Shown one piece after another: positions 20,529 to 62,375 of a DNA stretch of 64,000 bases. This DNA comes from Tethya wilhelma (lineage: Eukaryota; Porifera; Demospongiae; Tethyida; Tethyidae). The stretch covers positions 22,288,776 through 22,352,775 of the forward strand of contig CAXIPT010000001.1 of NCBI GenBank assembly GCA_964030475.1. Reading direction: 5' to 3'. The position numbers and the translations under genes are program-made. The stretch's first letter is position 1. Each line of letters begins with the position of its first letter. The notes under the pieces are model-generated. The model saw only the letters and a list, made by a program, of their open reading frames with translations, was not told the origin of the DNA and did no database searches.

Positions 20529-21937
20529 TATATGCTGTTATTGTTGAGTGTACTAGAGACTATAGTGATATTTGGACATGAAATAACACAGAATGCTCCA
20601 CCAAACCCAATCCGACCTCCACTAATAGTGTTGCTATTGACAGTGCTATTGATCACTGCGATATTAGGACTTGAGACAGCATACACTGCTCCACCCCGTC
20701 CACCTTGATCTCCTGTAATAGTGTTGCTATTGAGAGTGCTATTGACCACAGCAATATTAGGACCTGAGACAGCATACACTGCTCCACCCCGTCCACCTTG
20801 TTCTCCACTAATAGTGTTGCTATTGAGAGTGCTATTGATCACAGCAATATTAGGACTTGAGACAGCATACATTGCTCCACCCTGTCCACCTTGATCTCCG
20901 GTAATAGTGTTGCTATTGAGAGTGCTATTCTTGATAGTGATATTAGGACTTAAGTGAGCATACACTGCTCCACCATCTCCACCTTGATCCCCACTGATAG
21001 TGTTGTTGTTGAGAATACTATTGACTATAGTCAGATTATGACTTGAGTCAGCAATCATTGCTCCACCACCTCCAAACTGATCTCCACTCACAATATTGTT
21101 GTTGAGAGTGCTGTTAATTATAGTGATATTTGGACTTGAGTCAGCAGCCACTGCTCCACCACTTGCAAACTGATCCCCAGTCACAATATTGTTGTTGAGA
21201 GTACTATTGATAATGACAACGTTAGGACTAAAGCTAGCATGTATTGCACCACCATATCCATTCTGAACTCCTTTAACAATGTTGTTATTCAGTGTACTAT
21301 TGACTATAATGATTGGACATGAATTAGTGTAGACTGCTCCACCACCCTGGTCTCCATTCATTTGTCCAGTGTTATTTCTAATTATGCAATTCAAAATACT
21401 AGTACTCTGTGTACAGTTGAAAACACTAATTGCTCTATCAAGAAAAAAATAGAAAGTGCTTCTATCAATGTTAGCTGTCAACACATTTACGAGATTCAGT
21501 CCAGTTCCATTAAGTCCCTGACCATTAAAACTACAATTGTCTATTGTAAATTCTCCGATCATTTTGACTTTATTATTCACACATCCAAGGAGTGTTAATC
21601 CTCTTATACTTGCAAGATTCATAAACTGAAAGTCAAATCTAGCAAAGTGAGAGCAGCTTATTAAAGTATCTTTGTGGGAACTTGTGTTTGATACAACAGA
21701 CAAACTTGTGATATTTTGAATGGTCAGTTTTGAATCCAAGCTGTGGTTCCCAGCTAGAAGGATAAGAGTGGTGTTGAAGGCAAAGTAGTTGCTAGATCTG
21801 TTAGCATACTGGGAGAGAGTGAAGCAAGGCACACCTTCTTCAGGACATGGGGTGTTTGGTGATGGTATGACATAGTAGGTCTCAGCAGATGTGAGCACCA
21901 TCAGTGTTAAAAATAGAATAATTTTGATCATAGCCAT
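20529..21937 (-). pseudogene. Receptor family copy 1: N-terminal half, cut at a contig join
   Basis: It starts at MAMIKIILFLTLMVLTSAET (signal peptide). A conserved block follows (NTPCPEEGVPCFTLSQYANR), then an N-glycosylation-rich region. After that come nine 31-residue repeats of the type SPNI-x-I-x-NSTLN-x-N-x2-x-GDQ-x2-x-GGA-x-YA-x-S. This is the beta-helix repeat seen in chlamydial PMP-like proteins. Similarity stops at the N at 20528, inside the ninth repeat. The rest of the beta-helix, the linker and the membrane part are missing. It is called partial because the break is more likely an assembly gap than a biological truncation. Units at about 20690-20920 are nearly identical in DNA. 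Confidence 0.85.
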
Positions 21938-22113
21938 CCAACCCTTTTGCTCTATATGTCCAATACAGGATTTTACAGCTTGTTAAATTGTATTAATTGG
22001 ACTGGATAAACTATCAATTATTCAGCAATTGATTGTCTCGTTAACTAGAAGTAACAGTAGAGCTCTGACACAGCCACCTATACTATTAACTTAGTGACGA
22101 TTTACCACGAAAT

Positions 22114-23765: not shown

Positions 23766-25796
23766 ATGAAAAATTGCACTGTTTTCTATTTAGAGAACAC
23801 CACTGAGTCACATTGCTTTGTGACTATCATGGCTGTGGATAAGCAGGAACTATGCATTATATGCTCACAAGGTCCCACAGAAATGGATGGCCATTTAATC
23901 ATTCCTCAAACACATGAATCATGGCAAACATTGCTTAGAGCAGCTGAAATAAGAAACTACACTCCAATTATAGATGCAGCCAAACAAGTTGAAGAAAATG
24001 TAACTCCTAAAGTCTATTATCATCGAAAGTGTAGAAGTGTATTTACAATGAAAAGAGATTTAAACACTTTGATGAAAAGAAAAGCTGAAGCAACCTCTGA
24101 CAATGAATCTTCCAGTGAATGTAGTTCAAAACGGTACAGCAGAAGACCATCAGAATCACGGGTGTACAATCCAGAATGCATTTTCTGTGGTAAAGTAAAA
24201 TATATCAAAGGTTCAAAAACCCGGGAAAAACTAACTCAAGCTGTCCAACTGCGTGCAGACAAAACACTGAGAGAATTTGCTACTCAGAAAGGAGACAAAA
24301 AGATCCTCGCAGTTACAAGTCGAGATATAGTTGCTGCTGAGGCCCACTATCACCATTCATGTTATAAGAATTACACGAGAGTCAAGTCAAAGGAGTCTTC
24401 TACTTCTAGTGAGATAACAGATGAAGATAGTGCATACCAATGTGCTGAAAGTGAAGCTTTTACTGATCTTTTTGAGTATATCAGAACTGATATCATTCCT
24501 AACAAAAAGATAGTGCCTATCACTTCTCTGACTGCAAGACTGGAATCCTCAATGCTCTCTGCTGGAATTGAGCGTGTACGTGATTCAACAAAGAAACACA
24601 TCCGCAGGAGACTAGAAGCAGAACTGTTGACTTCAGTCCACATATTTCCTGATGACAAGGGAAAGCTGTTGATGGTTCCTGATAGTGTAACTCTACAGGA
24701 TGTTGTCCTAGAAGTACAATGTCTGCGCAGAGAACTTGGGATTTGGAAAACAAAAGTAACAAACCTCAACAAGATTACAGATCAAGTCTCATCAAATATC
24801 AGGTCAGCTATTAAAGAGAGTATGACACCAACCCCTTTTCCTTTCCATCCTTCTGATGTGATTAATACTCACTTGTGCATACCACATCAACTGGAGAGGT
24901 TTCTGATTGGTCTCATCACTGGTGATCCTGATGCCAAAACTCTGTCTAACAGAGTCAGCACTCTACTACAGTCATTCAGCCAGGATCTTATATATGCTGT
25001 AACATGTGGGAAACATAAACCACCAAAGCATATGCTGCTCCCATATGCAGTCAAAACCCTGACTGGAAATGTAGAGATCCTCCAGATGCTTAACAAGTTG
25101 GGCCATGGTGTCTCCTACTCTCAGCTAGAAGAGAATGAAACTGCTTTGTGCCTTCAAAAGCTAGCAACAAGTCTCAACCAGAAAATTCCACTTCCAGCCT
25201 CTATCATACCGTACGTCTTCACGAATCTGGCTTGGGATAATATAGATCGACTTGAAGAGACTCTCACTGGAAAGGGCACTTCACATCGAGTCAATGGCAT
25301 TGCTGTACAAGCAAATGTTTTTGGACCTCATCTCCCCAGAGCTGAACTTCCTCGCATTGAAAAAAAGCACAAAAGAAGATCGATCAGTGTTGAGCAGAAA
25401 GAACTGAGTGTGTATGTAGCAGGTGTGCGTGTAGGCCCTCAACCACTCCTAACGAAGGAGAATCATGGCCAAGAAAGTTTAAAAGCAGCTCAAGTTGCAC
25501 GCAAGAAAAATCTGGTTTGGATTCTTGCAAGGATTTCTGGTGAAGCTATCCCCAGCTGGACTGGTTTTAACATTCTAACTAGAAATGAAGAGCCAGTTTC
25601 CAAAGATGTTATTGGATATTTGCCAACAATCAATGCCCCAGCTACAGAGTTAAACACAATTTTCGAAGTTCTTAACAAGTCAGAAGAAATCAGAAAGGAT
25701 CTCTTCCTAGAAACCATTGTAGTAGTTGTTGATCAAGCAGTCTATGCTAAAGCAACTGAAATTGTATGGAAACGAAAAGACCAGTTGCTGGAATAG
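23766..25796 (+). CDS. Academ-like element protein, first part (676 codons)
   Basis: The frame is open for 676 codons and ends at 25796. The first in-frame ATG is at 23766; the ATG at about 23829 (MAVDKQELCIIC) is a better start because a zinc-ribbon-like CIICSQGP follows at once. A second cysteine cluster (CIFCGKVKYIKG) comes at about residue 137, and a HHSCY motif at about 197. The middle is helical and unassigned. The end (VVVDQAVYAKATEIVWK) is followed in related animal proteins, as I recall, by a conserved segment that is missing here. The next frame starts 31 bases upstream of this stop. Together they look like one former protein of about 1,560 residues broken by a small deletion. Confidence 0.7.
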   Translation: MKNCTVFYLENTTESHCFVTIMAVDKQELCIICSQGPTEMDGHLIIPQTHESWQTLLRAAEIRNYTPIIDAAKQVEENVTPKVYYHRKCRSVFTMKRDLNTLMKRKAEATSDNESSSECSSKRYSRRPSESRVYNPECIFCGKVKYIKGSKTREKLTQAVQLRADKTLREFATQKGDKKILAVTSRDIVAAEAHYHHSCYKNYTRVKSKESSTSSEITDEDSAYQCAESEAFTDLFEYIRTDIIPNKKIVPITSLTARLESSMLSAGIERVRDSTKKHIRRRLEAELLTSVHIFPDDKGKLLMVPDSVTLQDVVLEVQCLRRELGIWKTKVTNLNKITDQVSSNIRSAIKESMTPTPFPFHPSDVINTHLCIPHQLERFLIGLITGDPDAKTLSNRVSTLLQSFSQDLIYAVTCGKHKPPKHMLLPYAVKTLTGNVEILQMLNKLGHGVSYSQLEENETALCLQKLATSLNQKIPLPASIIPYVFTNLAWDNIDRLEETLTGKGTSHRVNGIAVQANVFGPHLPRAELPRIEKKHKRRSISVEQKELSVYVAGVRVGPQPLLTKENHGQESLKAAQVARKKNLVWILARISGEAIPSWTGFNILTRNEEPVSKDVIGYLPTINAPATELNTIFEVLNKSEEIRKDLFLETIVVVVDQAVYAKATEIVWKRKDQLLE

Positions 25797-28420
25797 TTGC
25801 TGAAGGATCCATCAATGGAGTCCTAGATGGCAAACACTACAATCGAGCTGTCCGAGTGCACAAATACATCTATGAAGCACTAATGAAAATGGTGTGGGCA
25901 GAATTCTTGCTTTGGGCAGAGAATGATCTGGAGGCTAGTTCTACTATCAAGGTGTTTATCAATAAAGTTGAGTGCATAACGTGTGATCTCAATCAGCAAA
26001 CATTTGATGGATTGTTGAACAGTACAGCGTTAACCAAGCTTATGACCCTGTGGAGTTCTTTCCTGGAGTTCTTGCACTGTGATAATGGAGACCTATCAGC
26101 TTACTGGATGTCCTACATCGATATGGTTGAGAATGTCTTACTTCTTCTTTTGCGTGGTTCTCGAGAAGGAAACTGGAATTTGCATCTCTATGCAAAACGA
26201 AGTATGATACCATGGTGCTTTGCCTATGACAAGGTTAACTATGCCAGGTATCTTTCTGCATACTATGCTGAAATGACAAATCTGTCTGAGGAAAAACCTT
26301 ATGTGTATGAGGCTTTTCAAGCTGGCCAATTCTCAGTGCAAATGTCTAACAATAACCCCTTTGGACGCATTCCTATTGATCAGACAACCGAAGTTACAGT
26401 AAACAAAGACACTCAAACTCCTGGTGGTACAACTCGTTTCAGTTTAAAAGCTGGAGCTGTCAAAAGATACTATCTGACAGCTGAGCACCGTAGTGCGTTT
26501 CTGAGGCAGATTAGAAGTATGGTACAAGGAAAGGAGTCCAAACATTGCCACCCTGAGCTTCAAGCGAGAAGAATGGAAAAAGATACAGAAGCAGTATCTT
26601 CAGTGTTACAGCTTATCCAAGGATGGGTAAACCCCTTTGCAGCAAACCAAAGCTTAGTGAGCATCTCCACTGCAAGAATAGCTCCTAGTGATATCTTGTC
26701 TGACTTGATGAAGGCACATGAAGTTGGTGAGCAATGTTATTCTGCTTTCAAAGGTGAGAGGCTAGAAAAGGATCCACCGATAAAGAAATTTCATGACCCA
26801 ATCACAAAAAATAAATTGAAAACCTTCAGCAATTTGTGTAAGAAGAAGGAGGTTAAGTCAAATGGGAGAGTGATTATTTTGAAAGCAGACAGGTCCCTGT
26901 TTGGTCGTATCATAGTAATGGCACAAGGACGGGATCTCAAGATGGAAAATATTCTCTCTCATCCACTTGGACCATTACCCTGGGCTCTGTCTACTCCTGA
27001 TGGCCTATTGAGAAAGACAAACAAAGCCTCTTTAGCTACAACTCTCCAGAAAAATGTAGCAATAGCAGAGCAGTTTCCAGAAAATTCTGCCTCAGTAATT
27101 GATGGAATGAATTTGGTTCAGAGGGTGAAAGGAGACCAAACTACATTTGGAGATGTTGCTATTGCAGTATTATCAATGGCACTACGAGAAGGTAGCCAAA
27201 GCAAACGGATAGATGTTGTGTTTGACGTTTACCAGGAAAATTCTATCAAAAACAGTGAGCGATCAGTACGAGGTGAAGAAACGGGGCATCAGCTAGATAG
27301 CATTACAAGCACACAAATTGTAAGACAGTGGAGATCTTTCTTGTCAAGAATATCAAACAAATCAACACTGATTGCCTTCACTGTCAGTGAATGGAGGAAA
27401 GCACATTGCAGAGAGAAACTGCATGAGAAGGTGTTGTATGCAACTACTGGTGAGAAATGCTTCAAAATAACCTTTCAAGGAAGCATGGAATTTTCTGGTC
27501 TCCAGTGCTACCAAGAAGAAGCTGATGGTCGCCTACTATTGCATGCTAATCATGCAGCAGAAGAGGGGTATGAATCTGTAGTGATATGCTCTGAAGACAC
27601 TGATGTTTTTATAATGTCCTTAGCATTCCATGACAGGATACAAGCATCCTTATTTCAACAGTGTGGAACAAAAACTCGGAGAAGACTTGTTGACATCAGA
27701 AAAGTTGCTGCTACAGTTGGTATAGATGTGTGCAGAGCTCTTATTGGCTTGCATGCATTCACTGGATGTGACACTGTTAGTGCTTTTGCAGGCAAAGGAA
27801 AAGCAAAAGCACTGAAATCATTGATTAGCAACAAGCAGGATCAAGATACTTTCCTCAAGTTAGGTCAAGATTGGGATATCTCTCAGGAACTTACAGAGAA
27901 ACTTGAAGAGTTTACATGCCGTCTCTATGCCCCAAAAGTTTCATCCAATAATATCAATGATCTCAGATATAATCTTTTCTGTGCTAAAAAGGGAGAGATT
28001 GAGAGTCATCAGCTTCCACCATGCAAAGACTGTTTAATGAAACATGCATTAAGAGCTAACTACCAAGCTGGAATTTGGAGGAGATGTCTGGAGCAGAATC
28101 CTCATGTGCCAAGCCCCGTCAGTAGGGGTTGGAAAATGGAAAAGCAAGAATCTGATGAATATCTAGTTGTGGACTGGATGAATGGTCAACCTGCTCCTCA
28201 AGCTATTCTTGATTTACTTGCATGTACCTGTAAAAAGAAATGTGAGCTTCCCAAGTGCGAGTGCATGGCAAGTGGACTCAAATGCACAGACATGTGTACA
28301 TTGCAAAACTGTGAGAACCAGCCAAACCAGGAAGACAATGAAGATAGTGAAACTGAAGTTGATAGTAATGAAGTAGTTGAAGACTCTGATGATAATGATG
28401 AGATTGAAGAAGATTTTTAA
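25766..28420 (+). CDS. Academ-like element protein, second part: FEN1/XPG-like nuclease with CXC motif
   Basis: The frame of 884 codons begins with an accidental METKR; the true homology starts near residue 9 (GIVAEGSINGVLDGKHYNRAVR). Around residue 486 is FDVYQENSIKNSERS-x-RG. From about 580 a nuclease-like core appears: EEADGRLLLHA, then SEDTDVFIM, then LIGLHAFTGCDTVSAFAGKG followed by KAKAL. This order of acidic EAD, acidic D-x-D, and a GCD..S..-GKGK-KA helix-hairpin is the FEN1/XPG PIN-domain pattern. At about 819-849 a cysteine-rich CXC motif (CTCKKKCELPKCEC...LKCTDMC) resembles tesmin/TSO1 DNA-binding motifs. The tail is highly acidic. Its role would be DNA binding and cleavage in transposition; this is inference. 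Confidence 0.7.
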   Translation: METKRPVAGIVAEGSINGVLDGKHYNRAVRVHKYIYEALMKMVWAEFLLWAENDLEASSTIKVFINKVECITCDLNQQTFDGLLNSTALTKLMTLWSSFLEFLHCDNGDLSAYWMSYIDMVENVLLLLLRGSREGNWNLHLYAKRSMIPWCFAYDKVNYARYLSAYYAEMTNLSEEKPYVYEAFQAGQFSVQMSNNNPFGRIPIDQTTEVTVNKDTQTPGGTTRFSLKAGAVKRYYLTAEHRSAFLRQIRSMVQGKESKHCHPELQARRMEKDTEAVSSVLQLIQGWVNPFAANQSLVSISTARIAPSDILSDLMKAHEVGEQCYSAFKGERLEKDPPIKKFHDPITKNKLKTFSNLCKKKEVKSNGRVIILKADRSLFGRIIVMAQGRDLKMENILSHPLGPLPWALSTPDGLLRKTNKASLATTLQKNVAIAEQFPENSASVIDGMNLVQRVKGDQTTFGDVAIAVLSMALREGSQSKRIDVVFDVYQENSIKNSERSVRGEETGHQLDSITSTQIVRQWRSFLSRISNKSTLIAFTVSEWRKAHCREKLHEKVLYATTGEKCFKITFQGSMEFSGLQCYQEEADGRLLLHANHAAEEGYESVVICSEDTDVFIMSLAFHDRIQASLFQQCGTKTRRRLVDIRKVAATVGIDVCRALIGLHAFTGCDTVSAFAGKGKAKALKSLISNKQDQDTFLKLGQDWDISQELTEKLEEFTCRLYAPKVSSNNINDLRYNLFCAKKGEIESHQLPPCKDCLMKHALRANYQAGIWRRCLEQNPHVPSPVSRGWKMEKQESDEYLVVDWMNGQPAPQAILDLLACTCKKKCELPKCECMASGLKCTDMCTLQNCENQPNQEDNEDSETEVDSNEVVEDSDDNDEIEEDF

Positions 28421-32600: not shown

Positions 32601-35600
32601 TCACTTCAATAAAGGAGTGTGTTCATCATTATCCGACTGGTAGTACTCTTCCTGAGAATGATTTGTTTGCATTTCTACTGATAATGGTTGGAGGAGTTGA
32701 GGTGTAGTAGAGCATTGACCTCCAGACTCCAAAGTATTCAACTCTATTTCAATAGGAATGTCTTGCTGCTTAGGTGTGTCCCTGTTTGGGTCATCCTGAT
32801 TGATCTCATCCTGTATGATGGTTATCTGATGAGGTGTTTCAAGTGTAATCAAAGTGTTTGCTGTAGGAATGGTAGTTGGAGGGTGATCATCAATTGGGAG
32901 TGGTCGAGTGTTTCGCTCTGTCTCAGTGAGCAGCACTTCAACTAATTCACTATCATGTTCTTCTGGTGTAGGAATGGTATCCAAGGGTTCTGGTAAGGCA
33001 TCTACTTCAGTCTCACTCTCTGCAATTGACTCTTTAATCAAATGATGTAGAGGAGTCAATCTATCATTGATTTCCTCATTCACTCTGTGGAACTTGCAAA
33101 ACTTAAGCCTCATCTTTTCTAATTGCTCATTGCAAACAAAAGATTTCACATGGTGTGTAAGGATAGCTAGAAATGTTGCAAAGGCAATGCCAGTTGAAAT
33201 GTAAGCAACCACTGTCTGGTACTTAGCTGCATTTGTAAACAAGGTGGCAACGGATAGAGCAATGAGGTTCAAGAGAGAAATGATGTCCAGCATATTGTTA
33301 CGTTTCTTTTTGTGTATAAAGTTATGCCTCCATTCAGTTATAAGGATCTGAAATGTAAGAATGCCAGTGATCACTACAGCTATGCTGAGGAGGTTGATAC
33401 GAGGATCTCCGAGAACATTCACACTTGATATAAGATACAAGACAACTCGAACTAAAAATAGCAGTCCAATCCAATAACGATGGTCTTTGTTGTAGGGATT
33501 GTGGTAAGCATCAATAAATGCAATAAATTTACCATTTCCAATGATCCATTTTAAAGGTCCTTTGTTTGGACAGTAGACAAGCCACTGCCAAGAAAAGAGT
33601 ACAAGTGTGAATGCTGTACCAACTACGAGAATGATAAGAGCTGTGATAAATAGAGGGATGTGTTTTTCTCTGAGGTATGGAATATTGGCATCAACTAGCC
33701 ATACCAGTTCACTTGTACCATCAGAGTATTGGAGTGTTGTAAATTGCAATGCAGCAATGATTGTACGAAGGAGCTTTGTATAGGAGAGTAGAATAAGAGT
33801 AGCCAGTGTTGCTATTGGGTTCTTTCCAACAAAGAGCATTGCAAACTTTGTAGAATGATCACTGATGACGATAATTGCAACAACCAGGGAAATGACACAG
33901 AGTGGAAATGCTAGTTGTAGCCAGGTTTTTACATAGGCATCCATTCCATCAAATAAACAGGTTTCAAATCCAAAGTCTAGATTACTCCATGCTATTAAGA
34001 TAGACAGTATCCTTGTTTCATCATGTGGGAAGAAAATAGCACGATTTGCAGCAATAATGTTAACGTATAAGATCAGAGCATTAAAAGTTCCTTCAGCTAC
34101 CACAAAGTTTACTTTCAGAATAAAAGCAATCAGTACTACACCAGCAAGAGCAAAGACAATGAGTAGTGCAAGCCAGTTGTTAGAACATAGCTTACAGTTT
34201 GAAGTTCCAAGAGAGAGACTGAGACCATCTCCACAAGATCCACAGAGCTTTCCTGAGCGATTGAATGCACACATTTTATTGGTACCATTTTCAGTGTTTT
34301 TCAGTGCACACCAGTTGTACTGAATGCTATGGAGTTGTTGATATGGTCGACTGCAATAAGTGACACTGTAAATTTTTGTCCTTTTGTTACATACTTTGGT
34401 AGAGGATGGTACCTGCAGTCTGGTTGATTGTCTTTACAGAAACAAAGTCGAACTGGATCAGATGATATTACTTTAGTTGAGTTGAAGTCTTGCACCCTAA
34501 GATTGGTAATGCTTAATATTGCGGTAATGTTGCCTAGTACAGATATTGTAAGAGCATAAGATTCACCTGCTTCAGCCATGAGGCTTACTCCACACCTGTC
34601 TAATAGCCCACCGTATAGAACATCTCCTGCTATTTCAGCTGAATTGTCAATAAAGTATGTGCTATGTTGAATGCTTTCTAGATGATTGATAAGATTCTGA
34701 TCATGATCTTTTGTGTAATGATTAGGATAATTTAATTGTTCTTGAATGAAGCATTCATTGTTGATTGTGGTTTTACTGACAAATGAAGTAGGAGTGGTGT
34801 AGCAAGTTGTAGAAGCTGTTTGATCAGCCACAAATATAGCCCCTCCATAGGTGGCAGTGTTATTGTTGAAAAGTAATGATATCCATGCTGATGATGAGCA
34901 CTTAAGATAGGTACATTTAATCACATCTTTAGTTTTTATCAAGTAGACTTTAGAACTTCCTTCCATGTACATTCCACCTCCCATTTTAGCATGATTAGTA
35001 GTGATGTAAGCTTTGGATCTATCTGTTAATCTTGTTGCTGAACTAATAGCATGAATGCCTCCACCGCTGATTCGTGCAAAATTTCTACTTATGTTTATCT
35101 GATTCTCGATATTGAGTTCACTCTGAATTGTATATATGCCTCCTCCAGACTCTGATGCTTTGTTGTCAGATATAGTTAGAATTCCATAAATGTAAAGTTT
35201 GCTTTCTGTAGCTGCAATTGCTCCACCTCTTATAGCCCTGTTGTATGTGAGGTAGACTTTATCCATAAAAACTATATCACTTTGAAAGACACTTATTGCT
35301 CCTCCTTCTTCAGATGTGTTGGAGTTCTCAATGCTAGTGTACCCTGTGAATGTCACATTGCAAGAGTGAAGAAATAGAGATCTAGTGTTGTTTTTTAGTG
35401 TTGAATTACCTGAAAACTTTAATGTACTTTGAATGGCATATATTGTACTTTGGCTAGTGATTTTATTTTCAACAATGAGCGAACTGCTACTGTAGAATCT
35501 TGTAAAAGCAAGGTAAAATACTGAACCTATATCTGCAATGTTGTTACTGAAAATATTGCTCATTATTATGACAGTTACTGGTACCTCTTCTCTACTCACA

Positions 35601-38053
35601 GCATACACTGCCCCTCCAAAAGATTGACTATCTGCCCTTACAAGGTTGCTGTTGAATGTACTATTGATTAGAGTGATATTTTGAATTAAAACAGCATAGA
35701 TTGCTCCACCAGTTGCATACTGATCTACAGTCACACTGTTGTTGTTGAGAACACTGTTGACTACTGTGATAGAGTAGTTTGGACTTGATATCTCATACTC
35801 TCCTCCACTAGCTCCAGAATGATCTCCAGTTATAGTGTTGTTTATGAGAATACTATTATTGTATAATATAGCAACAAATTTCGTAGTTGAGACAACACAC
35901 ACTGCTCCCCCACTCCCACTCTCACCTCCAGTTACAATGTTGTTGTTTAGAGTACTATTTGCTATAGTAAAATTTGGACTTGAGTCATCAACCAATGCTC
36001 CACCCAGTCCACCTTTATTTGAACTCACCCTGTTGCTATTGAGTGTGCTGTTCACTATAGTAATGTTAGGACTTGATTTAACATTCACTGCCCCACCAAC
36101 TCCACCCTGGTCTCCTATCACAGAGTTATTGTTGAGTGTGCTATTGACTATAGTGATATTTGGACTTGAGGAAACAAACATCGCTCCTCCAATTGCTCCC
36201 TGATCTCCAGTCACAGTGTTATCATTGAGTTTAGTATTGACTATATTGATATTAGGACTTGACCAAAGGTATATTGCTCCACCACCTCCACCATTAACTG
36301 TTATTGTGTTGTAGTTGAGTGTACTATTGACTATGGCCATAGTAGGACTTGATGTAGCAACTATTGCCCCACCATATCCACTCTGACCTCCTGTCAAGGT
36401 GTTGCCATTGAGAATAGTGTTGACTATAGTAACATATGGACTTGAAAATGCAAACAATCCTCCACCTTGAATCTGATTTCCAGTCGTATTTATAATGTTG
36501 TTGTTGAGTATACTAGTGTCTATTGTGATATTTGGATATGAATTGTCAAACAATGCCCCACCTAATCCGCTCTGGTTTTCAGTAAGAGTGTTGTTTTTCA
36601 GTGTACTGTTAACTATGGTGATGTTAGGACTTGATCCAATGCTTATTGCGCCACCAGCTCCACCAGCTCCACCTTGAGCTCCAGTTATTGTGTTATAGTT
36701 GAGTCTACTATTGACTATGACCATCGTAGAACTTAAATGTGCAAATATTGCCCCACCAGATCCAACCACAGTGTCGCTATTCAATGCATCACCTTGACTC
36801 TTATTTCCAGTCATATTTATAATGTTGTTGTTGAGTGTACTAGTATCTATAGTGAATTTTGGACATGAGACAATGAACAATGCCCCACCTAATCCGCTCT
36901 GATTTCCAGTAAGAGTGTTGCTATTGAGTGTACTATTGAATATAGTGATATTGGCACTTGATTGAACGTATATTGCTCCACCACTGGCACCTCTGGATCC
37001 ACTCTGAACTCCTGTGACTGTCACAGTATTGCTACTGAGTGTACCTTTGATCATTGTTATGTTTGGACTAAAATAAAGAACTAATGCTCCACCAAATCCA
37101 ATCTGATTTCCAGTAATAGTGTTGCTGTTGAGAGTACTGTTGATTATAGTGATATTAGGACTTGAGTACACAAACATTGCTCCACCACCTGCACTTTGAT
37201 CTCCAGTCACACTGTTGTTGTTGAGTGTACTGTTAACTATAGAGATATTGGGACTTGAATCAGCAATCACTGCTCCACCAGCTCCGAACTGATCTCCAGT
37301 TGCTTCATTGTTGTTGAGAGTACTATTGATAATGACAACACTAGGACTAAAACTAGCATGTAATGCGCCACCATATCCATTCTGACTTCCAATAGCAGTG
37401 TTGCTGTTTAGTGTACTATTGACTATAGTGACAGGACATGAAGTTGTTCGTACTGCTCCACCACCCTGATTTCCAGTCATATGTACAGCATTGTTTTCAA
37501 TTATACAATTTATAATACTAGTAAGATGTGCACAGTTGAAAATGCTAATCGCTCTATTAAGAAAAAGAATGAAAGTACTCTTAATAATGTTTGCAATCAA
37601 TACATTAGTAAGAATCAATCCAGTTCCATTATGCTCTTGACCATTGAAACTACAATCGTCTATTGTAAAATTTTCAACATAGTCAACTTCATTATTAACG
37701 CACCCAAGGAGTGCTAATCCTCTTATGCTGGCAACATCGATATACTGAAAATCAAATCTAGCAAAATGCGAGCAGCTTATTGAAGTATCAGTGTGGGAGC
37801 TTGTGTTTGACGCAACAGACAGACTTGTGATATTTTGAATGGTCAGCTCTAAATCCAAGCTGTGGTTCCCAGATAGAAGAATAAGAGTAGTGTTGAAGGC
37901 AAAGTAGTTGCTGGATTTGTTAGCATACTGTGAGAGAGTGAAGCAAGGCACACCTTCTTCAGGACATGGGATGTTTGATGATGGTGTGACATAGTAGGTC
38001 TCAGCAGATGTGAGCACCAACGGTGTTAAAATCAAAATTATTTGGATAGTCAT
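32601..38053 (-). pseudogene. Receptor family copy 2: full-length gene broken by a deletion of about 430 bp
   Basis: Two frames, 38053-34301 (1,250 codons) and 34274-32601 (557 codons), together match copy 3 from signal peptide to tail. The first has the signal peptide (MTIQIILILTPLVLTSAET), the cysteine block and about 20 beta-helix repeats. The second has the SGKLCGSCGDG linker, eight or nine hydrophobic helices and the cytoplasmic tail ending in EHTPLLK. Between them, about 430 bp present in copy 3 (41302-41732), coding for the CPIGF...CPFDYC cysteine region, are missing and the frame is shifted. The first protein would end at ...SFSTTGVH-like sequence without a membrane anchor, so a secreted beta-helix product is possible. 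The loss may be a null allele or a real change. Confidence 0.85.
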
Positions 38054-39650: not shown

Positions 39651-42600
39651 TTACTTCAATAGAGGAGTGTGTTCATCATCCTCCGACTGGTAGTACTCTT
39701 CCTGGGAATGACTTGTTTGCATTTCTACTGATAATGGTTGGAGGAGTTGAGGTATAGTAGAGCATTGACCTCCAGATTCCAAAGTGTTCAACTCTATTTC
39801 AATAGGAAAATCTTGCTGCTTAGGTGTGTCCCTGTTAGGTTCGAGTGTGATCAAAGTGTTTGCTGTAGGAATAGTGGTTGAAGGCTGATCATCAATTTGG
39901 AGTGGTGGAGTGTTTGGCTCTGTCTCAGTGAGCAGCACTTCAACTAATTCACTATCGTGTTCTTCTGGTGTAGGAATGGTATCCAAGGGTTCTGGTAAGG
40001 CATCTACTTCAGTCTCACTCTCTGCAATTGACTCTTTAATCAAATGATGTAGAGGAATCAATCTATCATTGATTTCCTCATTCACTCTGTGGAACTTGCA
40101 AAACTTAAGCCTCATCTTTTCTAATTGCTCTTTGCAGACAAAAGATTTCATATGGTGTACAAGGATAGCTAGAAATGTTGTGAAGGCAATGCCGGTTGAA
40201 ATGTAAGCAACCACTGTCTGGTGCTTAGCTTCATTTGTAAATAAGGTGGCAACGGATAGAGCAATGAGGTTCAGTAGAGAAATGATGTCAAGTACATTGT
40301 TGCGTTTCTTTTTGTGTATAAAGTTATGCCTCCATTCAGTTATAAGGATCTGAAATGTAAGAATGCCAGTTATCACTACAGCTAAGCTGAGGAGGTTGAT
40401 ACGAGGATCTCCGAGAACATTCACACTTGATATAAGATACAAGACAACTCGAACTAAGAATAGCAATCCAATCCAATAACGATGGTCTTTGTTGTAGGGA
40501 TTGTGATAAGCATCTATAAATGCAATAACTTTACCATTTCCAATGATCCATTTTAATGGTCCTTTGTTAGGACAGTAAACAAGCCACTGCCAAGAAAAGA
40601 GTACAAGTGTGAATGCTGTTCCAACTATGAGAATGACAAGAGCTGTGATAAATAGAGGGATGTGTTTTTCTCTGAGGTATGGAATATTGGCATCAACTAG
40701 CCATACCAGTTCACTTGTACCATCAGAGTACTGGAGTGTTGTAAATTGCAATGCAGCAATGATTGTACGAAGGAGCTTTGTATAGGAGAGTAGAATAAGA
40801 GTAGCCAGTGTTGCTATTGGGTTCTTTCCAACAAAAAGCATTGCAAACTTTGTAGAATGATCACTGATGACGATAATTGCAACAACCAGGGAAATGACAT
40901 AGAGTGGAAATGCTAGTTGTAGCCAAGTTTTTACATGGGCATCCATTCCATCAAATAAACAGGTTTCAAATCCAAAGTCTAGATTGCTCCATGCTATAAA
41001 GACAGACAGTATCCTTGTTTCATCATGTGGGAAGAAAACAGCATGATTTGCAGCAATGATGTTGGCATATAAGATCAGAGCATTAAAAGTTCCTTCAGCT
41101 ACCACAAAGTTTACTTTCAGAATGAAAGCAATCAGTACTACACCAGCAAGAGCAAAGAGAACGAGTAGTGCAAGCCAGTTATTAGAACATGACATACAGT
41201 TTGAAGTACCAAGAGAGAGACTGAGACCATCTCCACAAGATCCACAGAGCTTCCCTGAGCGATTGAATGCACACAGTTTATTGGCGCCATTTTCAGTGTT
41301 TAAATTGACTGATACATTTTCAGTTGGTGAATGGCAGTAGTCAAAAGGACAGTGTTTATGTAGTACATAGTCATGGTATTCTGTGGTGTTCAGATGAGTA
41401 AACCAAACATTGTCTTTTCTCTGGACTGTTTCTGTTTGTATGGAACATGTTAAAATGTAGTCAGGATAGATTATGGGGTCACATTTACAACGTAAACTGT
41501 CATTTGTTTCAGTGAATCCAATTGGACATGGTTTGATGTTTACTGTGAGATTTGCTATAGATATTCCAGCATCTTTACAGGGGCCATCAGCATAAAGATG
41601 AAGTTCCTCAGTGTTGTGTGGAGAGAGAATACTGTAAACCATATCAGTACAACTACCATCTCCATTAGTCTCTTGAATAGACTGTCCCTCACCAAGTTGT
41701 GCCTCTACTGATACATATGCATGTATTTTAGGCACACCAGTAGTACTGATTGCTATAGAGTTATTGATATGGTCGACTGCAACAAGTGACACTGTAAATG
41801 TTTGCCCTTTTCTTACATACTTTGGCTGAGGATGGTAACTGCAGTCTGGTAGGTTGTCTTTACAGTAGCAAAGACGAACTGGATCAGATGATATTGTGTT
41901 AGTCGTGTTGAAGTCTTGAACTTTAAGATTGGTAATGCTCAATATAGCGGTAATGTTACCTGTTATAGAAATTGTAAGAGCATAGGTTTCAACTGTTTCA
42001 GCCATGATGCCTACTCCACACCTGTCTAATAGTCCACCGTATAGAACATCTCCTGCTATTTCAGCTGAATTGTCAATAAAGTATGTGCTACGATAAATGC
42101 TCCCTAGATGGTTGACAAGATTCTGATCATGATCTTTTGTGTAATGACTAGGATAATTTAATTGTTCTTGAATGAAGCATTCATTGTTGATTGTGGTTTT
42201 ACTGACAAATGAAGTAGGAGTGGCATAGCAAGTTGTAGAAGCAGTTTGATCAGCCACAAATAGAGCCCCTCCATAGGTGGCAGTGTTATTGTTGAAAAGT
42301 AATGATATCCATGCAGATGGTGTGCACTTAAGATATGTACAATTAATCACATCTTTAGTTTTTATCAAGTAGACTTTAGAACTTCCTTCCATGTACATTC
42401 CGCCTCCCATTTTAGCATGATTAGTAGTGATGTAAGCTTTGGATCTATCTGTTAATCTTGTTGCTGAACTAATAGCATGAATGCCCCCACCACTGATTCC
42501 TGCAAAATTTCTACTAATGTTTATCTGATTCTCGATATTGAGTTCACTCTGAAGTGCATATATGCCTCCTCCTGATTCTGATGCTGTGTTGTCAGATATA

Positions 42601-47015: not shown

Positions 47016-47533
47016 ACTTGGTGAGTGCTTAACCACAGTAAAAGTACATGGGAAAGAAGCCACATTACCTCTAGTTGTGGTAGAGGGGAGTGGGGAAGTG
47101 CATTGTTGGTCAAAATTGGCTGAGAAAATCCATGCAGCTGAACTGGATGAGACTACCAGGCCAGTAAAAGAAATAGAGTGTTTAGTTTGAAAGTACGAAA
47201 GTGTATTCCATGTAAAACCTGATGCAACCCCCAATTTTTCAGCCAAGACAATCCCCCTTAGTATGAGGTTCAAAGTAGAGGAGGAATTGGAGTGCGTGAT
47301 TACCAAGTTACCATCAATCCTAACCTGGACATGATCAGTACCCATTACCCAGAGCAGAGGAGCTATTATCTACCTTAAATGGAGGAGAACAGTTCAAACT
47401 AGATCTCTCAGAGGCTAGCTTACTTGCAAATCAAATTGGACAAAGAATCCAAACAATACCTTGTTATAAGCACACACACAAATGTCTCAACTGAATGAAA
47501 TAGCATGCTCCATTGATGATATCATCACCACAA

Positions 47534-47731
47534 AGGATGGAGTTGAACACCTAGAATGGGAAGGATAGAGTTGTACACCTAGAATGGGAAGGATAGAGTT
47601 GTACACCTAGAATGGGAAGGATAGAGTTGTACACCTAGAATGGGCAGGATAGAGTTGTACACCTAGAATGGGAAGGATAGAGTTGTACACCTGGAATGGG
47701 AAGGATAGAGTTGAACACCTGGAACGGTTAG
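47534..47731 (+). repeat. 28-bp minisatellite, about 7 units
   Basis: Unit GGGAAGGATAGAGTTGTACA plus CCTAGAAT, repeated about seven times with few changes (one GGGCAGG unit, one GAACACCTGG). It grew from a single gypsy RT motif, since relic A has the same words once near 29320. Confidence 0.9.
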
Positions 47732-49860: not shown

Positions 49861-50157
49861 CAATTGAATTATTAACGATTGATGTTCATGTATCTTGTGA
49901 TTTACTGAGGTTAATAATTATTAATGACAGAATACATACACTTTAACAGCATAACATCTGTATTATACTATTGTGGTGTGCTGAGATCAGGTTGGATTTA
50001 GGTATGGCATGTTTTGTTGTGTCAGGAAGAACATGCTGGTCGTGTATTTGCATCATAAGGGTCATGCCATTACATGTAGGCCTTGAGATCCGGAAGTCAA
50101 CTAGTGTCTATGAATTGTCGTATAATTACTACGATTTTCTGCTCCAATGCCAATGAG
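49861..50157. other. Spacer after the contig join
   Basis: AT-rich sequence beginning right after the N at 49853. Phrases near 49920-49990 (ACAGAATACATACACTTTAA, TGTGGTGTGCTGAGATCA) resemble the receptor 5' flanks at 22180 and 45750. This suggests a further, lost receptor copy nearby. Confidence 0.45.
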
Positions 50158-50231
50158 TTCTAGCAGCTCAATTGTAAGAGCATTCAACTAGAATTCAAAA
50201 AACCTGGGTTCGAATCCCAGCTAGATCTCAA
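50158..50231 (+). tRNA. tRNA-like sequence, probably pseudogene or SINE head
   Basis: A D-arm-like AGCTCAATTGTAAGAGC is followed by a good T-arm, CTGGGTTCGAATCCCAG, which includes a perfect B box (GGTTCGAATCC). The outer stem GTTCTAG/CTAGATC pairs six of seven. The anticodon stem is poor and bases 8-9 read CA instead of TA. A working tRNA is unlikely; a Pol III-derived repeat is more probable. Confidence 0.5.
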
Positions 50232-54299: not shown

Positions 54300-54300
54300 N

Positions 54301-56623
54301 TGAAACTTATGTTTTTACTATTTCCTTAGTAAACAGCATTTCCTATATAGTAAACATTACTAATCTTAGGGTGCAAGACTTCAATTCAACCAAAACAATA
54401 TCATCTGATCCAGTTCGACTTTGCTTCTGTAAAGACAATCAACCAGACTGCAGTATCAATCCCCCAACAAAGAACGTTAGAAAAGGACAAACATTTACAG
54501 TGTCACTTGTTGCAGTTGACCATATCAACAACTCTATAGCAATCAGTACCACTGGTGTGCCTAAAATACATGCATATGTATCACTAGAGGCAGAACTTGG
54601 TGAGGGACAATCTATTCAAGAGACTAATGGAGATGGTAGCTGTACAGATTTGGTTTACAGTATTCTCTCTCCACACAACACTGAGGAGCTCCATCTCTAT
54701 GCTGATGGTCCATGTAAAGATGCTGGAATGTCTATAGCAAATCTCACAGTAAACATCAAACCATGTCCAATTGGATTCACTGAAACAAATGACAGTCTAC
54801 ATTGTAAATGTGACCCCATAATCTATCCTGACTACATTTCAACATGTTCCATACAAACAGAAACAGTCAAACGAAAAGACAATGTTTGGTTTACTCATCT
54901 GAATACCACAGAATACCATGGCTATGTACTACACAAACACTGTCCTTTTGACTACTGCCATCCACCAAGTGAAAATGTATCAGTCAATTTAAACACTGAA
55001 AATGGCGCCAATAATATGTGTGCATTCAATCGCTCAGGAAAGCTCTGTGGATCTTGTGGAGATGGTCTCAGTCTCTCTCTTGGTACTTCAAATTGTAAGC
55101 TATGTTCTAACAACTGGCTTGCACTACTTGTTCTCTTTGCTCTTGCTGGTGTAGTACTGATTGCTTTTATTCTGAAAGTAAACTTTGTGGTAGCTGAAGG
55201 AACTTTTAATGCTTTGATCTTGTATGTTAACATCATTGCTGCAAATCGTGCTGTTTTCTTCCCACATGATGAAACAAGGATACTGTCTGTCTTTATAGCA
55301 TGGAGCAATCTAGACTTTGGATTTGAAACCTGTTTATTTGATGGAATGGATGCCTATGTAAAAACTTGGCTACAACTAGCATTTCCACTCTATGTTATTT
55401 CCCTAGTTGTTGCAATTATCGTCATCAGTGATCATTCTACAAAGTTTGCAATGCTTTTTGTTGGAAAGAACCCAATAGCAACACTGGCTACTCTTATTCT
55501 ACTCTCCTATACAAAGCTCCTTCGTACAATCATTGCTGCATTGCAATTTACAACACTCCAATACTCTGATGGTAAAAGTGAACTGGTATGGCTAGTTGAT
55601 GCTAATGTTCTATATCTCAGTGGAAAGCATATCCCTCTCTTCATCACAGCTCTTATCATTCTCATAGTTGGAACAGCATTCACACTTTTACTCTTTTCTT
55701 GGCAGTGGCTTGTTTACTGTCCTAACAAAGGACCATTAAAATGGATCATTGGAAATGGTAAAGTTATTGCTTTTATTGATGCTTATCACAATCCCTACAA
55801 CAAAGACCATCGTTATTGGATTGGACTGCTATTCTTAGTTCGAGTTGTCTTGTACCTTATATCAAGTGTGAATGTTCTCGGAGATCCTCGTATCAACCTC
55901 CTCAGCATAGCTGTAGTGATCACTGGCATTCTTACATTTCAGATCTTTATAACTGAATGGAGGCATAACTTTATACACAAAAAGAAACACAACAATATGC
56001 TGGACATCATTTCTCTACTGAACCTCATTGCTCTATCCGTTGCCACCTTGTTTACAAATGAAGCTAAGCACCAGACAGTGGTTGCTTACATTTCAATTGG
56101 CATTGCCTTTACAACTTTTCTAGCTATCCTTGTACACCATGTGAAATCTTATGTTTGCAATGAGCAATTAAAAAAGATAAGCCTTGAATTTTGCAAGTTC
56201 CGCAGAGTGAATGAGGAAATCAATGATAGATTGATTCCTCTACATCATTTGATTAAAGAGTCGATTGCAGAGAGTGAGACTGAAGTAGATGCCTTACCAG
56301 AACCCTTGGATACCACTCCCACATCAGAAGAACATGATCAGCCTCCAACCACCATTCCAACAGTAAACACTTTGATCACACTTGAAACACCTCGACAGAC
56401 AACCATCACACAGGATGAGATCAATCAGGATGACCCAAACAGGGACACACCTAAGCAGCAAGACTTTCCTATTGAAATAGAATTGAACACTTTGGAATCT
56501 GGAGGTCAATGCTCTACTATACCTCAACTCCTCCAGCCATTATCAGTAGAAATGCAAACAAGTCATTCCCAGGAAGAGTACTACCAGTCGGATGATGATG
56601 AACACACTCCTCTATTGAAGTAA
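54301..56623 (+). pseudogene. Receptor family copy 4: C-terminal half, plus strand, cut at a contig join
   Basis: From the base after the N at 54300 the plus strand matches copy 3 from ETYALTISI onward. It then has ITNLRVQDFNSTK, the full linker (CPIGFTETNDSLHCKCDP, CPFDYC, SGKLCGSCGDG), the hydrophobic helices and the tail ending EHTPLLK. The frame is open throughout (about 770 codons). The signal peptide and beta-helix are absent, because the contig join falls exactly where similarity begins. It could be the missing half of another copy, placed or orientated wrongly by scaffolding. The tail lacks about 20 residues present in copy 2. Confidence 0.85.
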
Positions 56624-58102: not shown

Positions 58103-58421
58103 TTTGGAATAAATTGCTGTTTTCAGCTGTTTGCTTGGTGTACAATAATAAACCGTTTTTATTACAAAAATAATGGCAGCATTTTTATCCCAAAAATTTT
58201 GGTATAATTTGATTAAACAATGGGAAGAAAAGTACTTCATAACAAATACTTTTAATCAATTACACATTTACAATCAAAACATAATATTATGACACGTTAA
58301 CAAAAAACAAAATACTCACAGCATTGCATCAGTTTCAAATCGGTGATAAACAGTCAACATCATTGATTTTTCTTGCACAATAACCTTACAACAATGTGAA
58401 ATTTATGATGTGTTAGGTACA
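58103..58421. other. 3' flank of receptor copy 5
   Basis: AT-rich sequence; no gene seen. Confidence 0.5.
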
Positions 58422-61400
58422 CTAGTCAACCAGTAATGGTTCCTTTAACTCAATGGATGAATGTGAAATGTCTGTAGGTGCTTGAACTGTTGAAACAAAA
58501 TATTCTCTCAATACATTGTTTGACACAGTCATTTGTTTGAGTTTAAGTTGAAACTTTTCGTTCAACTGTTTTCCTTTTTTTGTTTCTGATATTTTCAAGT
58601 AAAGATGGTAGAAAGCAATAAAGACAAACTGGCAATACGCTATGCTAACTAATATTGTGCTCATTGTTTGAGAGCTATTGTACAAGTGTGTGCCTATTGT
58701 TAATATTCCGAGGTTAAGCATAAATGATACATCAGTTATGTTTGCCAATGTCGACTCATACACTCCTCCTACCACTACAAGATAGGATAAAATACATAAT
58801 GAGGTCGTTCCAATAGCCATCAGGTTCAGTGAAGTATCTCCAGATACATTTAAAGAGAATGTGAGGAAAAGTGCCACTCTAACTAGTAGTAGTACTCCAA
58901 ACCAGTAGACGTGTTTCTCTTTGAATGGACCAGTGTAGGCATCAAAGAGAGGCTTCAGTTTACCAACCCAACGTAGCAATCTGTGATGGTTGTATTTTCT
59001 TAGCCACTGGATAAAGAGTAGACTAACAGTGTAAGGTATTGATAGACAGAGAAGTACCATGAGGCCAGTAATGAAAAGAGGGATGTGCTTTCCTTTGAGG
59101 TAGTCCACATTTCCATCATAAAGCCACACCCTTCGCCTGTAGCCATCAGGATAAACCAGAGTAGTTGATTGAAAGATTGTGATGATGGTTCGAATGAGCT
59201 TTGCATAGGAAAGCAGGAATAGTGTTGCTAGTACTTGTACAACATTTGAACCACACAGCCTGGTAACAAAGACATAGCGACGACCGAGTGCAATAAGGAT
59301 GATCATGATGGTCCAGATGTAGAGAGGGAAAATAAACTGAAGCCAGGTTTTGACATAGGCATCAAGTCCATTGTAGAAGCACATTTCAATACCCAAGTCC
59401 AAATTTAACCAGGCAGTAAAGTAACTGAGGAATGAAGCTGAATTGAAAAAGGTGGTATTATTCGCTCGAATGATATTGGCATATAAAACTAATCCATTTA
59501 GCATACCAGTGGAAACATTGAGGTTTAAAAAAAGCATTGCAACAATTAGAAGGCATCCGACAACTGCAGCAACTGGAAGCAAAACTAGAATCCATAAGCT
59601 AGAACACTTCATGCATTTAGAAGTTCCAAGTACGTGACTGAAATTGTTTCGACAGCCTCCACAAAGTATTCCAGAGCAATTAGAATCACATTGATCATCA
59701 GGGTGTTCTAAGTCAAGTGCTATGAGTGATGAACTCTCAATACAGTAGTCAAATGGACAGTGATCACTGATGATAACTCCAGTGTCATTGACTAAGTTGT
59801 GATTGAATGTGGCATTGATCCATTTCTGAGTCGGTTTCATAACTCTAAGTGTTTCAAAATCACAGTCATGAATTTGCTGCTTAATTAGTGTTGGGTGACA
59901 AGAGCATATCATTGAATCCTTGTTAAAAGAAAATCCAAGAGGACAATTTTTGAATGAAACAATTACTGACAATTGTTGCTTCAGTATACCAAGCTCAGTA
60001 CGAAGAATCTGAGACAAGTTTGAATCAAGGTTAGAATAGATAAGGCTTTTTTGCAATTTATCTAAATCTGGAGTATTTTCGGTTTTTACTATCAACTTGA
60101 TCTTTTCCATCTTGTTGGATGAAAACATAGTGTACTGCAAACTCGTACAGGTACTGTTCACTTCTTGTATATACTGGCCATTCTTTATGAAACTCTTAGG
60201 ACTGCTTGAAAAATCAGCATGTACAATAGAAGACATTATTCCAAAACTTTGTCCAACAGCAACAACATCCACATAAACAGTTTGCCCTGGATAAGTCCTC
60301 ATATAATGCTCAGTGATGTTACAGTTGGGAACTGATGAGATACACATACAAACACGTACAGGATCTGATGCAATCATAGAAATATTCTCTTGCTCACCAT
60401 AAAAGTCTAGGGTTTCTCCATTATTGGTTGCAGCAAGTGTGTATACAATCCAGCCTCCATATAATGCACTCTCAGCTATATCAGCTGTGTTGTTGATAAA
60501 GTTTATCTTTAGCTTGTCCGAGGAATGTACTTCAATTGCACTCAGTTGAGATTGCTCTAAATCTACCAATGGACTGAAGTAAGTGTTGTCAATAAATACT
60601 GCACCACCTTTCCCTGATGCATGATTATTTGAAAATGAAAGTACCTTCTCTTGTAGTGCACAATTATTAAGGACAAAATCTTCTGAATCCATCCAACGAT
60701 AATGGTCCATTACGTAGGGGAAAAGATATCTATAAACTTTAGCGTACCAAGTAATATTATTATTTTTTGGAAATGATTCAAAGTAGTAACTGTTGTAATA
60801 TTTTGTACTGCAACTTTTAAGTTGTGATCTAGCATAAAATGATAATGCTCCTCCATCTTTTCCAAAGTTGCTATCAAACACTATATTGGCGTTTTCAAAG
60901 ATTTCAAGATTAGAATGAAGTAAAGTAAGTACACTGGTTCCGCTGTTGTTTCTAAAGAGTAAGCTAGTGTTACCTAACAACAAAATATCTGAACTTTCAG
61001 CTTCAAAAATGGGACAGTATAGATAGTTAGTAAAGCAATAATTGTCCTCAAAATTCACAACACTAGTTCTATTGATCAATAAAGTACTGTAATCAGTTAG
61101 CAGGAAACTTCCACTGTTGTTTACAAATAAAAATTGCCCAAGGATTGCTACATTACTTTGCCTAAACACTACTGGTTTTGAAATGTGATGAATTGTTACA
61201 TTACGTACTTCAACATTATACACATTTTTAATTCTCATTGCTCCACAGTGACACTGGCTGTTATCAAAAGTTGTGCTGTTAATACGAACATTCGTCAAAC
61301 GATCACGTTCTAGTTTCATTCTAATAACCACTGATAAACAAGATGCAGGGCCTGTGAAATTACTGTGAGATATTATGTCTATTTTCCCACCAACGGAGGC

Positions 61401-62375
61401 TACTTCAAATCCACCAGAATGAAGATTACACACTTTGAACTTTTTCAGTTCATGACGCAGTTCACGTACAATTTCTTTCATTAGGTTATTTAGTGTGGTC
61501 AACATTTTTAGTTTAGTTATATTCAGTGTTGATGTACTTCCATAGCTACCAGACAATACAAGCAAAAAACTAGGTAGAATGTCAAAATCAGCATTTATTG
61601 TTACATTGTATATATAAACTTCAAAATTACTGGGTTTTAATATTCTTACAAACACATCAACATCATATGGGTATACACTTCTTTTGAAGACAGTATTTTT
61701 AATCGTGAAAGTGAGTGCTCCATCAAAAAAACGCCCAACTCTTTCAAAAAAATCTTTATTCCAGGAACCATTGTCTAGAACAAAATTTCGGGTATTGTAT
61801 GCAAACTCAGAATTGAGTATCTGGACATTTTTGCGAACTCTGTTTAACTGAAGTCCAATACCAATACAATTGTGAACGTAAACCCTATCAATCACGACAT
61901 CAGTTGAGTCATTAATGTAGATATTACTTGACTTAAAATGTTTAGTACCAATATCAAATCCTACACACCCACTAACTTCAAACATACTCAGTGACAGCCC
62001 ATTAACATTACTGAAGTGAAATGCCCCAGAATTGGAGCATTGTAAAACAGGAATCTTTGAAATAGTACCTGAATCTGCAAATCCAACAATAGACAAGTTT
62101 TTTAGGTGTTCAAATATAATTGGAGTCTCCCTGGACAATGTAATGTTGTGTATTCCTGGCAACAGTATAATTTTTGTGTTGGAAGTAATTTTGTATGATG
62201 TTCCAAGTTCCTGCAGAGTGTAGCAGTGACTTCTCAGACACGATAACGTAATCGATTCAAATGGATTAGTGGGAAGAGCATAGATGGTTGTCTTAGCTCC
62301 AACAAAATTCGGAATCCATAAAGCAATTACGACTACCAACAGTGAAATGGTAAAAGGATAACTTGACACTGCCAT
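58422..62375 (-). CDS. Receptor family copy 5: divergent, intact beta-helix multi-pass membrane protein (1,317 aa)
   Basis: Single-exon frame. The N-terminus (MAVSSYPFTISLLVVVIALW) is a signal peptide, followed by a cysteine pair and an N-glycosylated beta-strand-rich domain. The domain has irregular repeats rather than the 31-residue GGA units of copies 1-3; one GKGGAVFIDN turn remains near 600. The linker keeps CPLGFSFNKDSMICSCHP, DHCPFDYC and CSGILCGGC. The membrane part clearly matches copies 2-4: ANII-x-AN, LNLDLGIEMCFYNGLDAYVK, TWLQFIFPLY, SYAKLIRTIITIFQSTTL, GKHIPLFITGL, YWFGVLLLVRVALF. The tail is short and ends in ELKEPLLVD. The beta-helix has therefore diverged far more than the membrane core. 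It is likely an older paralogue of the same surface family. Confidence 0.87.
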   Translation of the reverse strand: MAVSSYPFTISLLVVVIALWIPNFVGAKTTIYALPTNPFESITLSCLRSHCYTLQELGTSYKITSNTKIILLPGIHNITLSRETPIIFEHLKNLSIVGFADSGTISKIPVLQCSNSGAFHFSNVNGLSLSMFEVSGCVGFDIGTKHFKSSNIYINDSTDVVIDRVYVHNCIGIGLQLNRVRKNVQILNSEFAYNTRNFVLDNGSWNKDFFERVGRFFDGALTFTIKNTVFKRSVYPYDVDVFVRILKPSNFEVYIYNVTINADFDILPSFLLVLSGSYGSTSTLNITKLKMLTTLNNLMKEIVRELRHELKKFKVCNLHSGGFEVASVGGKIDIISHSNFTGPASCLSVVIRMKLERDRLTNVRINSTTFDNSQCHCGAMRIKNVYNVEVRNVTIHHISKPVVFRQSNVAILGQFLFVNNSGSFLLTDYSTLLINRTSVVNFEDNYCFTNYLYCPIFEAESSDILLLGNTSLLFRNNSGTSVLTLLHSNLEIFENANIVFDSNFGKDGGALSFYARSQLKSCSTKYYNSYYFESFPKNNNITWYAKVYRYLFPYVMDHYRWMDSEDFVLNNCALQEKVLSFSNNHASGKGGAVFIDNTYFSPLVDLEQSQLSAIEVHSSDKLKINFINNTADIAESALYGGWIVYTLAATNNGETLDFYGEQENISMIASDPVRVCMCISSVPNCNITEHYMRTYPGQTVYVDVVAVGQSFGIMSSIVHADFSSSPKSFIKNGQYIQEVNSTCTSLQYTMFSSNKMEKIKLIVKTENTPDLDKLQKSLIYSNLDSNLSQILRTELGILKQQLSVIVSFKNCPLGFSFNKDSMICSCHPTLIKQQIHDCDFETLRVMKPTQKWINATFNHNLVNDTGVIISDHCPFDYCIESSSLIALDLEHPDDQCDSNCSGILCGGCRNNFSHVLGTSKCMKCSSLWILVLLPVAAVVGCLLIVAMLFLNLNVSTGMLNGLVLYANIIRANNTTFFNSASFLSYFTAWLNLDLGIEMCFYNGLDAYVKTWLQFIFPLYIWTIMIILIALGRRYVFVTRLCGSNVVQVLATLFLLSYAKLIRTIITIFQSTTLVYPDGYRRRVWLYDGNVDYLKGKHIPLFITGLMVLLCLSIPYTVSLLFIQWLRKYNHHRLLRWVGKLKPLFDAYTGPFKEKHVYWFGVLLLVRVALFLTFSLNVSGDTSLNLMAIGTTSLCILSYLVVVGGVYESTLANITDVSFMLNLGILTIGTHLYNSSQTMSTILVSIAYCQFVFIAFYHLYLKISETKKGKQLNEKFQLKLKQMTVSNNVLREYFVSTVQAPTDISHSSIELKEPLLVD

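Follow-up and report, generated by a model that had tools for sequence, protein, structure and literature searches.

What kind of protein is encoded by a group of giant, related genes on one contig of the sponge Tethya wilhelma? The genes lie between positions 20529 and 62375 of a 64,000-nucleotide stretch of DNA (here called the window; contig C1:22288776-22352775, in a genome of 124.6 Mb and 204 contigs). An initial annotation, made from the letters of the window alone, had taken them for a cluster of five intronless genes for recognition receptors under diversification, with allorecognition or microbe sensing as possible roles.

Gene copies and protein architecture in the window

Five members of the family are present where five genes had been placed, but only copies C and E are intact (Table 1). 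Copy A ends and copy D begins at a single N, and both are thus cut by assembly joins rather than demonstrably short genes. Copy B, which extends over 32601-38053, is broken: compared with C, a segment of 425 bp has been deleted, with 5-bp microhomology, and the reading frame is shifted. An intron behind this break was considered and ruled out, since the piece is absent relative to C and the microhomology is present. C, E and four further copies that are readable whole (L014, L015, L023 and L027) each form a single open reading frame, as expected if, judging from these frames, the genes are intronless. Open frames reaching 1943 codons, together with 206 related loci, put the observation far beyond chance.

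Table 1 Features of the five family copies, in window positions
Feature	Position	Strand	Remark
Copy A, N-terminal half, with signal peptide and eight β-helix coils detected	20529-21937	-	Ends at single N, 20528
Copy B, ectodomain ORF, 1250 aa	34301-38053	-	Stops at frameshift from 425-bp deletion
Copy B, membrane core and tail	32601-34298	-	Different frame downstream of deletion
Copy C, intact single ORF, 1943 aa	39651-45482	-	
Copy C, signal-peptide-like N-terminus, about residues 1-17	45432-45482	-	Hydrophobic segment 5-23; boundary by eye
Copy C, Pmp-type coil array, approximate extent, 31-aa period	42807-44915	-	93-bp TRF rows 43471-43739 and 44465-44860
Copy C, membrane core, about residues 1421-1790	40113-41222	-	
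Copy C, C-terminal acidic dileucine EHTPLLK ([DE]xxxL[LI])	39654-39674	-	
Copy D, C-terminal half: membrane-proximal part, core and tail	54301-56623	+	Begins after single N, 54300
Copy E, intact single ORF, 1317 aa, diverged subfamily	58422-62375	-	
Copy E, membrane-proximal β-sandwich, residues 668-810	59946-60374	-	Structure model
Copy E, cysteine-rich linker, residues 811-927	59595-59945	-	Invariant cysteines
Copy E, nine predicted membrane helices, residues 928-1264	58584-59594	-	

The architecture described in the initial annotation is borne out by sequence: a signal-peptide-like N-terminus, a β-helix with many N-glycosylation sequons (57 in C, 29 in E), a cysteine-rich linker, a hydrophobic multi-helix core and a tail with PLL at or near its end. 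The ectodomain is a Pmp-type β-helix of 31-aa coils, with a DNA period of 93 bp and GGA and LxxN motifs. A scoring matrix gave the coil consensus xGxxxGxGGAVxAxSSPNITIVNSTLNNNxV and 8 to 17 coils per gene. The matrix was seeded with 73 coils selected by motifs, among them GGA and the +6 Asn, and these residues are therefore conserved across coils partly by construction. Pfam assigns PF13229 and/or PF02415 to A, B, C and E and has no match to D, a C-terminal half; PF02415 is above the cut-off in E and below it in C and B, where PF13229 is above. In alignment A1, 17 of the 18 members match PF02415 at E values up to 10, the best being 7e-9. Weak matches to DUF7630 (PF24633) occur in 10 of the 18 (best E 0.046) and were not used.

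The C-terminal core contains dozens of invariant residues and follows a linker whose cysteines are also invariant. Structure models predict nine membrane helices at moderate confidence (pLDDT 74-78). The core had no match in Pfam, NCBIfam or PDB sequences, and a fold search, itself a weak comparison, returned no significant match; its non-significant weak matches include channels and the exporter XPR1. Because the models are only moderately confident, both the helix number and the lack of a known fold carry little weight, and the loop charges of E fit the predicted topology only in part. No 7tm family is among the 13 Pfam families listed for the 18 members (E up to 10) or among the matches of seven window proteins (E up to 1), in searches whose HMMER filters drop most weak matches. 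Nor do the Pfam matches include the autotransporter β-barrel PF03797, the C-terminus being predicted as an all-helical membrane core. Over this range of searches the core could not be assigned, in agreement with the initial annotation.

Other elements share the window. A BEL/Pao-type retrotransposon polyprotein occupies 7959-12497 on the minus strand (Pfam Peptidase_A17, DUF1758, RVT_1, Integrase_H2C2 and DUF5641). Between A and B, on the plus strand at 23766-28420, lies a non-family gene of two overlapping ORFs (676 and 884 aa), the second with a weak tesmin/TSO1-like CXC match (E 0.011). A minisatellite with a 28-bp unit (6.9 copies, 96% matches) covers 47533-47724. A tRNA match in Rfam at 50157-50228 on the plus strand (44.5 bits), with none by ARAGORN, is perhaps a tRNA-derived repeat. 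In the genome as a whole an integrin-beta domain has 13 matches, against none in 14 control genomes, as would suit an animal or one of its close relatives.

A dispersed family and its relatives

The union of three own-genome searches with different cores comprises at least 206 family loci, a lower bound because each search scored its best 80-97 candidates. An ORF of at least 1000 aa is kept in 158 of these; the ORF is shorter than 1000 aa in the other 48, in some of them owing to assembly gaps. A neighbour within 20 kb places 105 of the 206 loci in 38 clusters of at most six, so that clustering holds for this part, but the family is genome-wide and an unrelated gene sits inside the span of the five copies. 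The codon pattern for KTWLQ, a core motif, occurs at 214 genome sites, whereas its reversed control occurs at 46. Of the 80 loci on contigs C1 and C2, 61 carry the exact pattern, and 62 of the 98 pattern sites listed there fall in a found locus. From this overlap we infer a true family size of roughly 220 loci. One copy of a third subfamily, L064 (2-4540), consists of two ORFs in the same frame split by one in-frame stop.

Relatives of the family are found on many other contigs. Matches were obtained for 3904 of 7996 scored candidates in a database search with the E core, for 1521 of 7987 with the C core and for 1015 of 7998 in a search for core-sized proteins. A source name is attached to 10 of the best 360 external matches (best 120 per search), and every one is a variant of 'hypothetical protein'. 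A FastTree rooted at its midpoint was built from 291 cores (56 own and 235 external, leaving out four own and five external proteins in which the core start was not found or the core was cut short). One clade in it unites 28 of the 29 own C-type copies, and own copies fall into 11 own-only clades. A core fragment filed under a proteobacterial MAG (P0353) possibly represents eukaryotic host contamination of that public MAG. Among the open-access papers listed in literature searches, none describes this architecture in its title or the opening of its abstract.

Much of the family also shares the end of its tail. Among 30 own loci of each type, the last 30 residues include PLL in 25 of the C-type and 24 of the E-type, compared with 1.3 and 0.6 in shuffled tails; the corresponding counts in external proteins are 58 of 120 (P0001-P0120) and 78 of 240 (P0121-P0360, many of them fragments). 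The acidic dileucine [DE]xxxL[LI] is present in 26 of the 30 C-type own tails versus 2.8 in shuffles and resembles a sorting signal. E-type own tails have the canonical form in none of 30, carrying [DE]LL or [DE]PLL in 24, and external proteins have it in 2 of 120 (shuffles 7.8) and 39 of 240 (shuffles 14.0). Since the canonical motif is absent from the E-type and rare in external proteins, an uptake signal is an idea for the C-type at best.

Divergence of core and coils

Close pairs of copies, drawn from 60 loci (core dS below 0.6, more than 200 ectodomain codons), share sequences and hence are not independent. Among them, the ectodomain exceeds the core in dN/dS in 115 of the 117 C-type pairs and in 10 of the 11 E-type pairs; the remaining E-type pair is saturated. 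The assertion that the genes differ most in their extracellular repeats, for which dN/dS was the proposed check, is borne out by these counts. Core dN/dS has medians of 0.21 and 0.16 in the close pairs and is 0.25 in B/C, and these low values, together with little change at the ladder positions of the coils, indicate purifying selection.

Synonymous divergence also changes along the genes. After Bonferroni correction within each group, core pS is significantly lower than pS outside the core in all 11 E-type pairs and in 11 of the 117 C-type pairs; every significant pair points in this direction, and the other 106 C-type pairs are not significant. At the nominal 0.05 level, 55 C-type pairs have the lower core pS and one (L023/L027, P 0.012) the opposite. 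In L058/L062, pS falls from 0.71 to 0.23 on entering the core; sliding windows, inspected by eye, place the step near the cysteine linker. The simplest cause of this pattern would be gene conversion acting on the core. Synonymous constraint or ectodomain alignment error may also account for it, perhaps in part.

Within the coils, change is concentrated at fixed positions. Three pairs were compared: C/B (B itself being a broken copy), L023/L027 and L014/L015. In all three, the fastest change falls at six offsets, of which -20, -19, -18 and -16 immediately precede GGA and -11 and -9 closely follow it; L014/L015 has further high values at -10, -6 and +7. Six positions were selected from two pairs at a time and assessed in the remaining one, with pN values of 0.176 versus 0.057, 0.254 versus 0.109 and 0.421 versus 0.230 (cross-validated P 2e-8, 3e-8 and 3e-7); the offsets -18, -16 and -9 recurred in every selection. 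Between pairs, the pN of individual offsets is correlated (Spearman 0.68, 0.78 and 0.71), as is their pS to a lesser degree (0.43, 0.42 and 0.16). In the pair C/A, which again involves C, the ranking of the positions is similar (pN 0.331 versus 0.142), but dN/dS at the fast positions is below 1 (pN 0.331 against pS 0.422). The +6 Asn shows no non-synonymous change in four pairs and is present in 102 of 102 coils, the latter partly by construction through the seeding. The scoring matrix replaced an earlier regular-expression register and the effect persisted; in that register, the single position -9 had a pN of 0.35 and a pS of 0.16, which is suggestive only.

At the fast positions dN/dS is 1.23, 1.15 and 1.30 in the three pairs. 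The excess over synonymous change is significant in no single pair (P 0.20, 0.24 and 0.08) and reaches a one-sided P of 0.028 when the pairs are pooled. Strong positive selection across the whole helix is ruled out by the B/C helix, in which dN/dS is 0.26-0.59 depending on the part. The fast coil positions therefore change at close to the neutral rate, with a slight excess in the three pairs, while the scaffold around them is strongly conserved. A surface under relaxed constraint would be expected to show almost the same pattern at these positions.

Where these positions would lie can be judged by analogy with Pmp rungs. According to PMC10715098, two Pmp motifs, GGA(I,V,L) and FxxN, are predicted to be buried in the rung, and the T3 turn/Omega-loop between FxxN and the next GGA is predicted to protrude, forming a common face in Chlamydia Pmps. 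By our own mapping, the GGAV of the coils is the counterpart of GGA(I,V,L) and LNNN that of FxxN, and the fast positions would then map to the T3/Omega-loop and the adjacent strand of the published rung, probably an exposed face.

Candidate functions and known counterparts

An expanded family with fast coil positions, a conserved core and a sorting-like C-type dileucine is best read as a large set of putative recognition receptors at the cell surface, and we hold the chances that this is right to be evenly balanced. Two features looked for in a receptor family were found, namely a large expanded family with intact members and variation focused on fixed repeat positions. Under this reading, the fast coil positions would form a ligand-contacting face along the rod, with the nine-helix core in the membrane and the tail in the cytosol. 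Ligand binding would be passed on to the core or the tail, and the acidic dileucine of the C-type could drive uptake, perhaps following recognition. Gene conversion would keep the core uniform while the coils diverge. Likely ligands would be external cues that vary, for example microbes or non-self cells. The original proposal of recognition receptors under diversification thus gains from the new data as the best fit, and its part on allorecognition or microbe sensing stays a proposal.

The same data bear on other explanations. The proteins may be adhesion or matrix rods, in which a long glycosylated spacer sticks cells to matrix, surfaces or food particles and the coil surfaces drift with little depending on them. 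The repetitive, sequon-rich rods of C and E and the closeness of the fast positions to neutrality would suit this idea, as would the discussion of Pmps as adhesins in PMC10715098, but a pure spacer has no obvious need for a multi-pass core with dozens of invariant residues or for so many copies, and we regard it as unlikely. Allorecognition proper, in which individuals would differ in these genes and the fate of contacts with conspecific tissue, fusion or rejection, would depend on them, draws on the fast positions, on the conserved core and on the self/non-self discrimination of sponges (PMC5450542). Dispersal over at least 206 loci is unlike the few linked loci of known allorecognition systems, and we regard this role as distinctly improbable.

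The proteins might instead be channels or transporters whose large ectodomain senses or shields; this would agree with the predicted nine-helix core and with the weak, non-significant fold matches to channels and XPR1, and appears slightly less probable still. The least probable alternative is a runaway tandem expansion of little function, its copies duplicating, decaying and drifting. The break in B, the in-frame stop in L064, the near-neutral fast positions and the shorter frames (48 of 206 loci below 1000 aa, some through assembly gaps) are what such an expansion would leave behind, but long ORFs are kept in the remaining loci, core and ladder positions are under purifying selection and related proteins exist on many other contigs, all of which argues against it.

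The nearest known counterparts of the family share some of its features and differ in others. With the Chlamydia Pmps (PF02415) and the Pmp-like proteins of Trichomonas it shares rungs of the GGA(I,V,L) and FxxN type with an asparagine ladder, and variable loops on the T3/Omega side (PMC10715098). It differs from Pmps in its anchor, a predicted nine-helix core in place of an autotransporter β-barrel, in its C-type coils, which read LxxN for FxxN, and in its presence at this copy number in a eukaryotic genome. Like the NLR, SRCR and GPCR expansions of sponges, it is a large lineage-specific family that can be read as recognition or sensing receptors (PMC12909245 and PMC4302439). The scanned copies have no NACHT, LRR, SRCR or 7tm match and are built on another architecture.

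Two further comparisons concern the mode of variation. The family varies at fixed repeat positions and conserves its scaffold residues, as do LRR-type hypervariable receptors such as plant NLRs and agnathan VLRs, in which set positions vary in each repeat, but it is made of β-helix rungs with a multi-pass core. Clustered protocadherins likewise combine diverse ectodomains with a homogenised membrane or cytosolic part; the present genes differ in having no cadherin domain in the scanned copies, in lying at dispersed loci or in small clusters and in being whole genes of single ORFs.

A bolder form of the receptor reading, which we put forward tentatively and think more likely wrong than right, is that these proteins represent a new class of animal recognition receptor. 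The Omega-loop face of a Pmp-type β-helix would serve as a hypervariable ligand-reading surface, the unassigned nine-helix core would be kept uniform by gene conversion, and hundreds of copies per genome would make up the main surface repertoire for non-self sensing in an early-branching animal. If true, some early-branching animals would own a large receptor repertoire that is invisible to Pfam- and GPCR-based surveys, because its membrane core has no model. The family would also provide concrete candidate genes, with defined coil positions, for how such animals may tell microbes or foreign cells from self.
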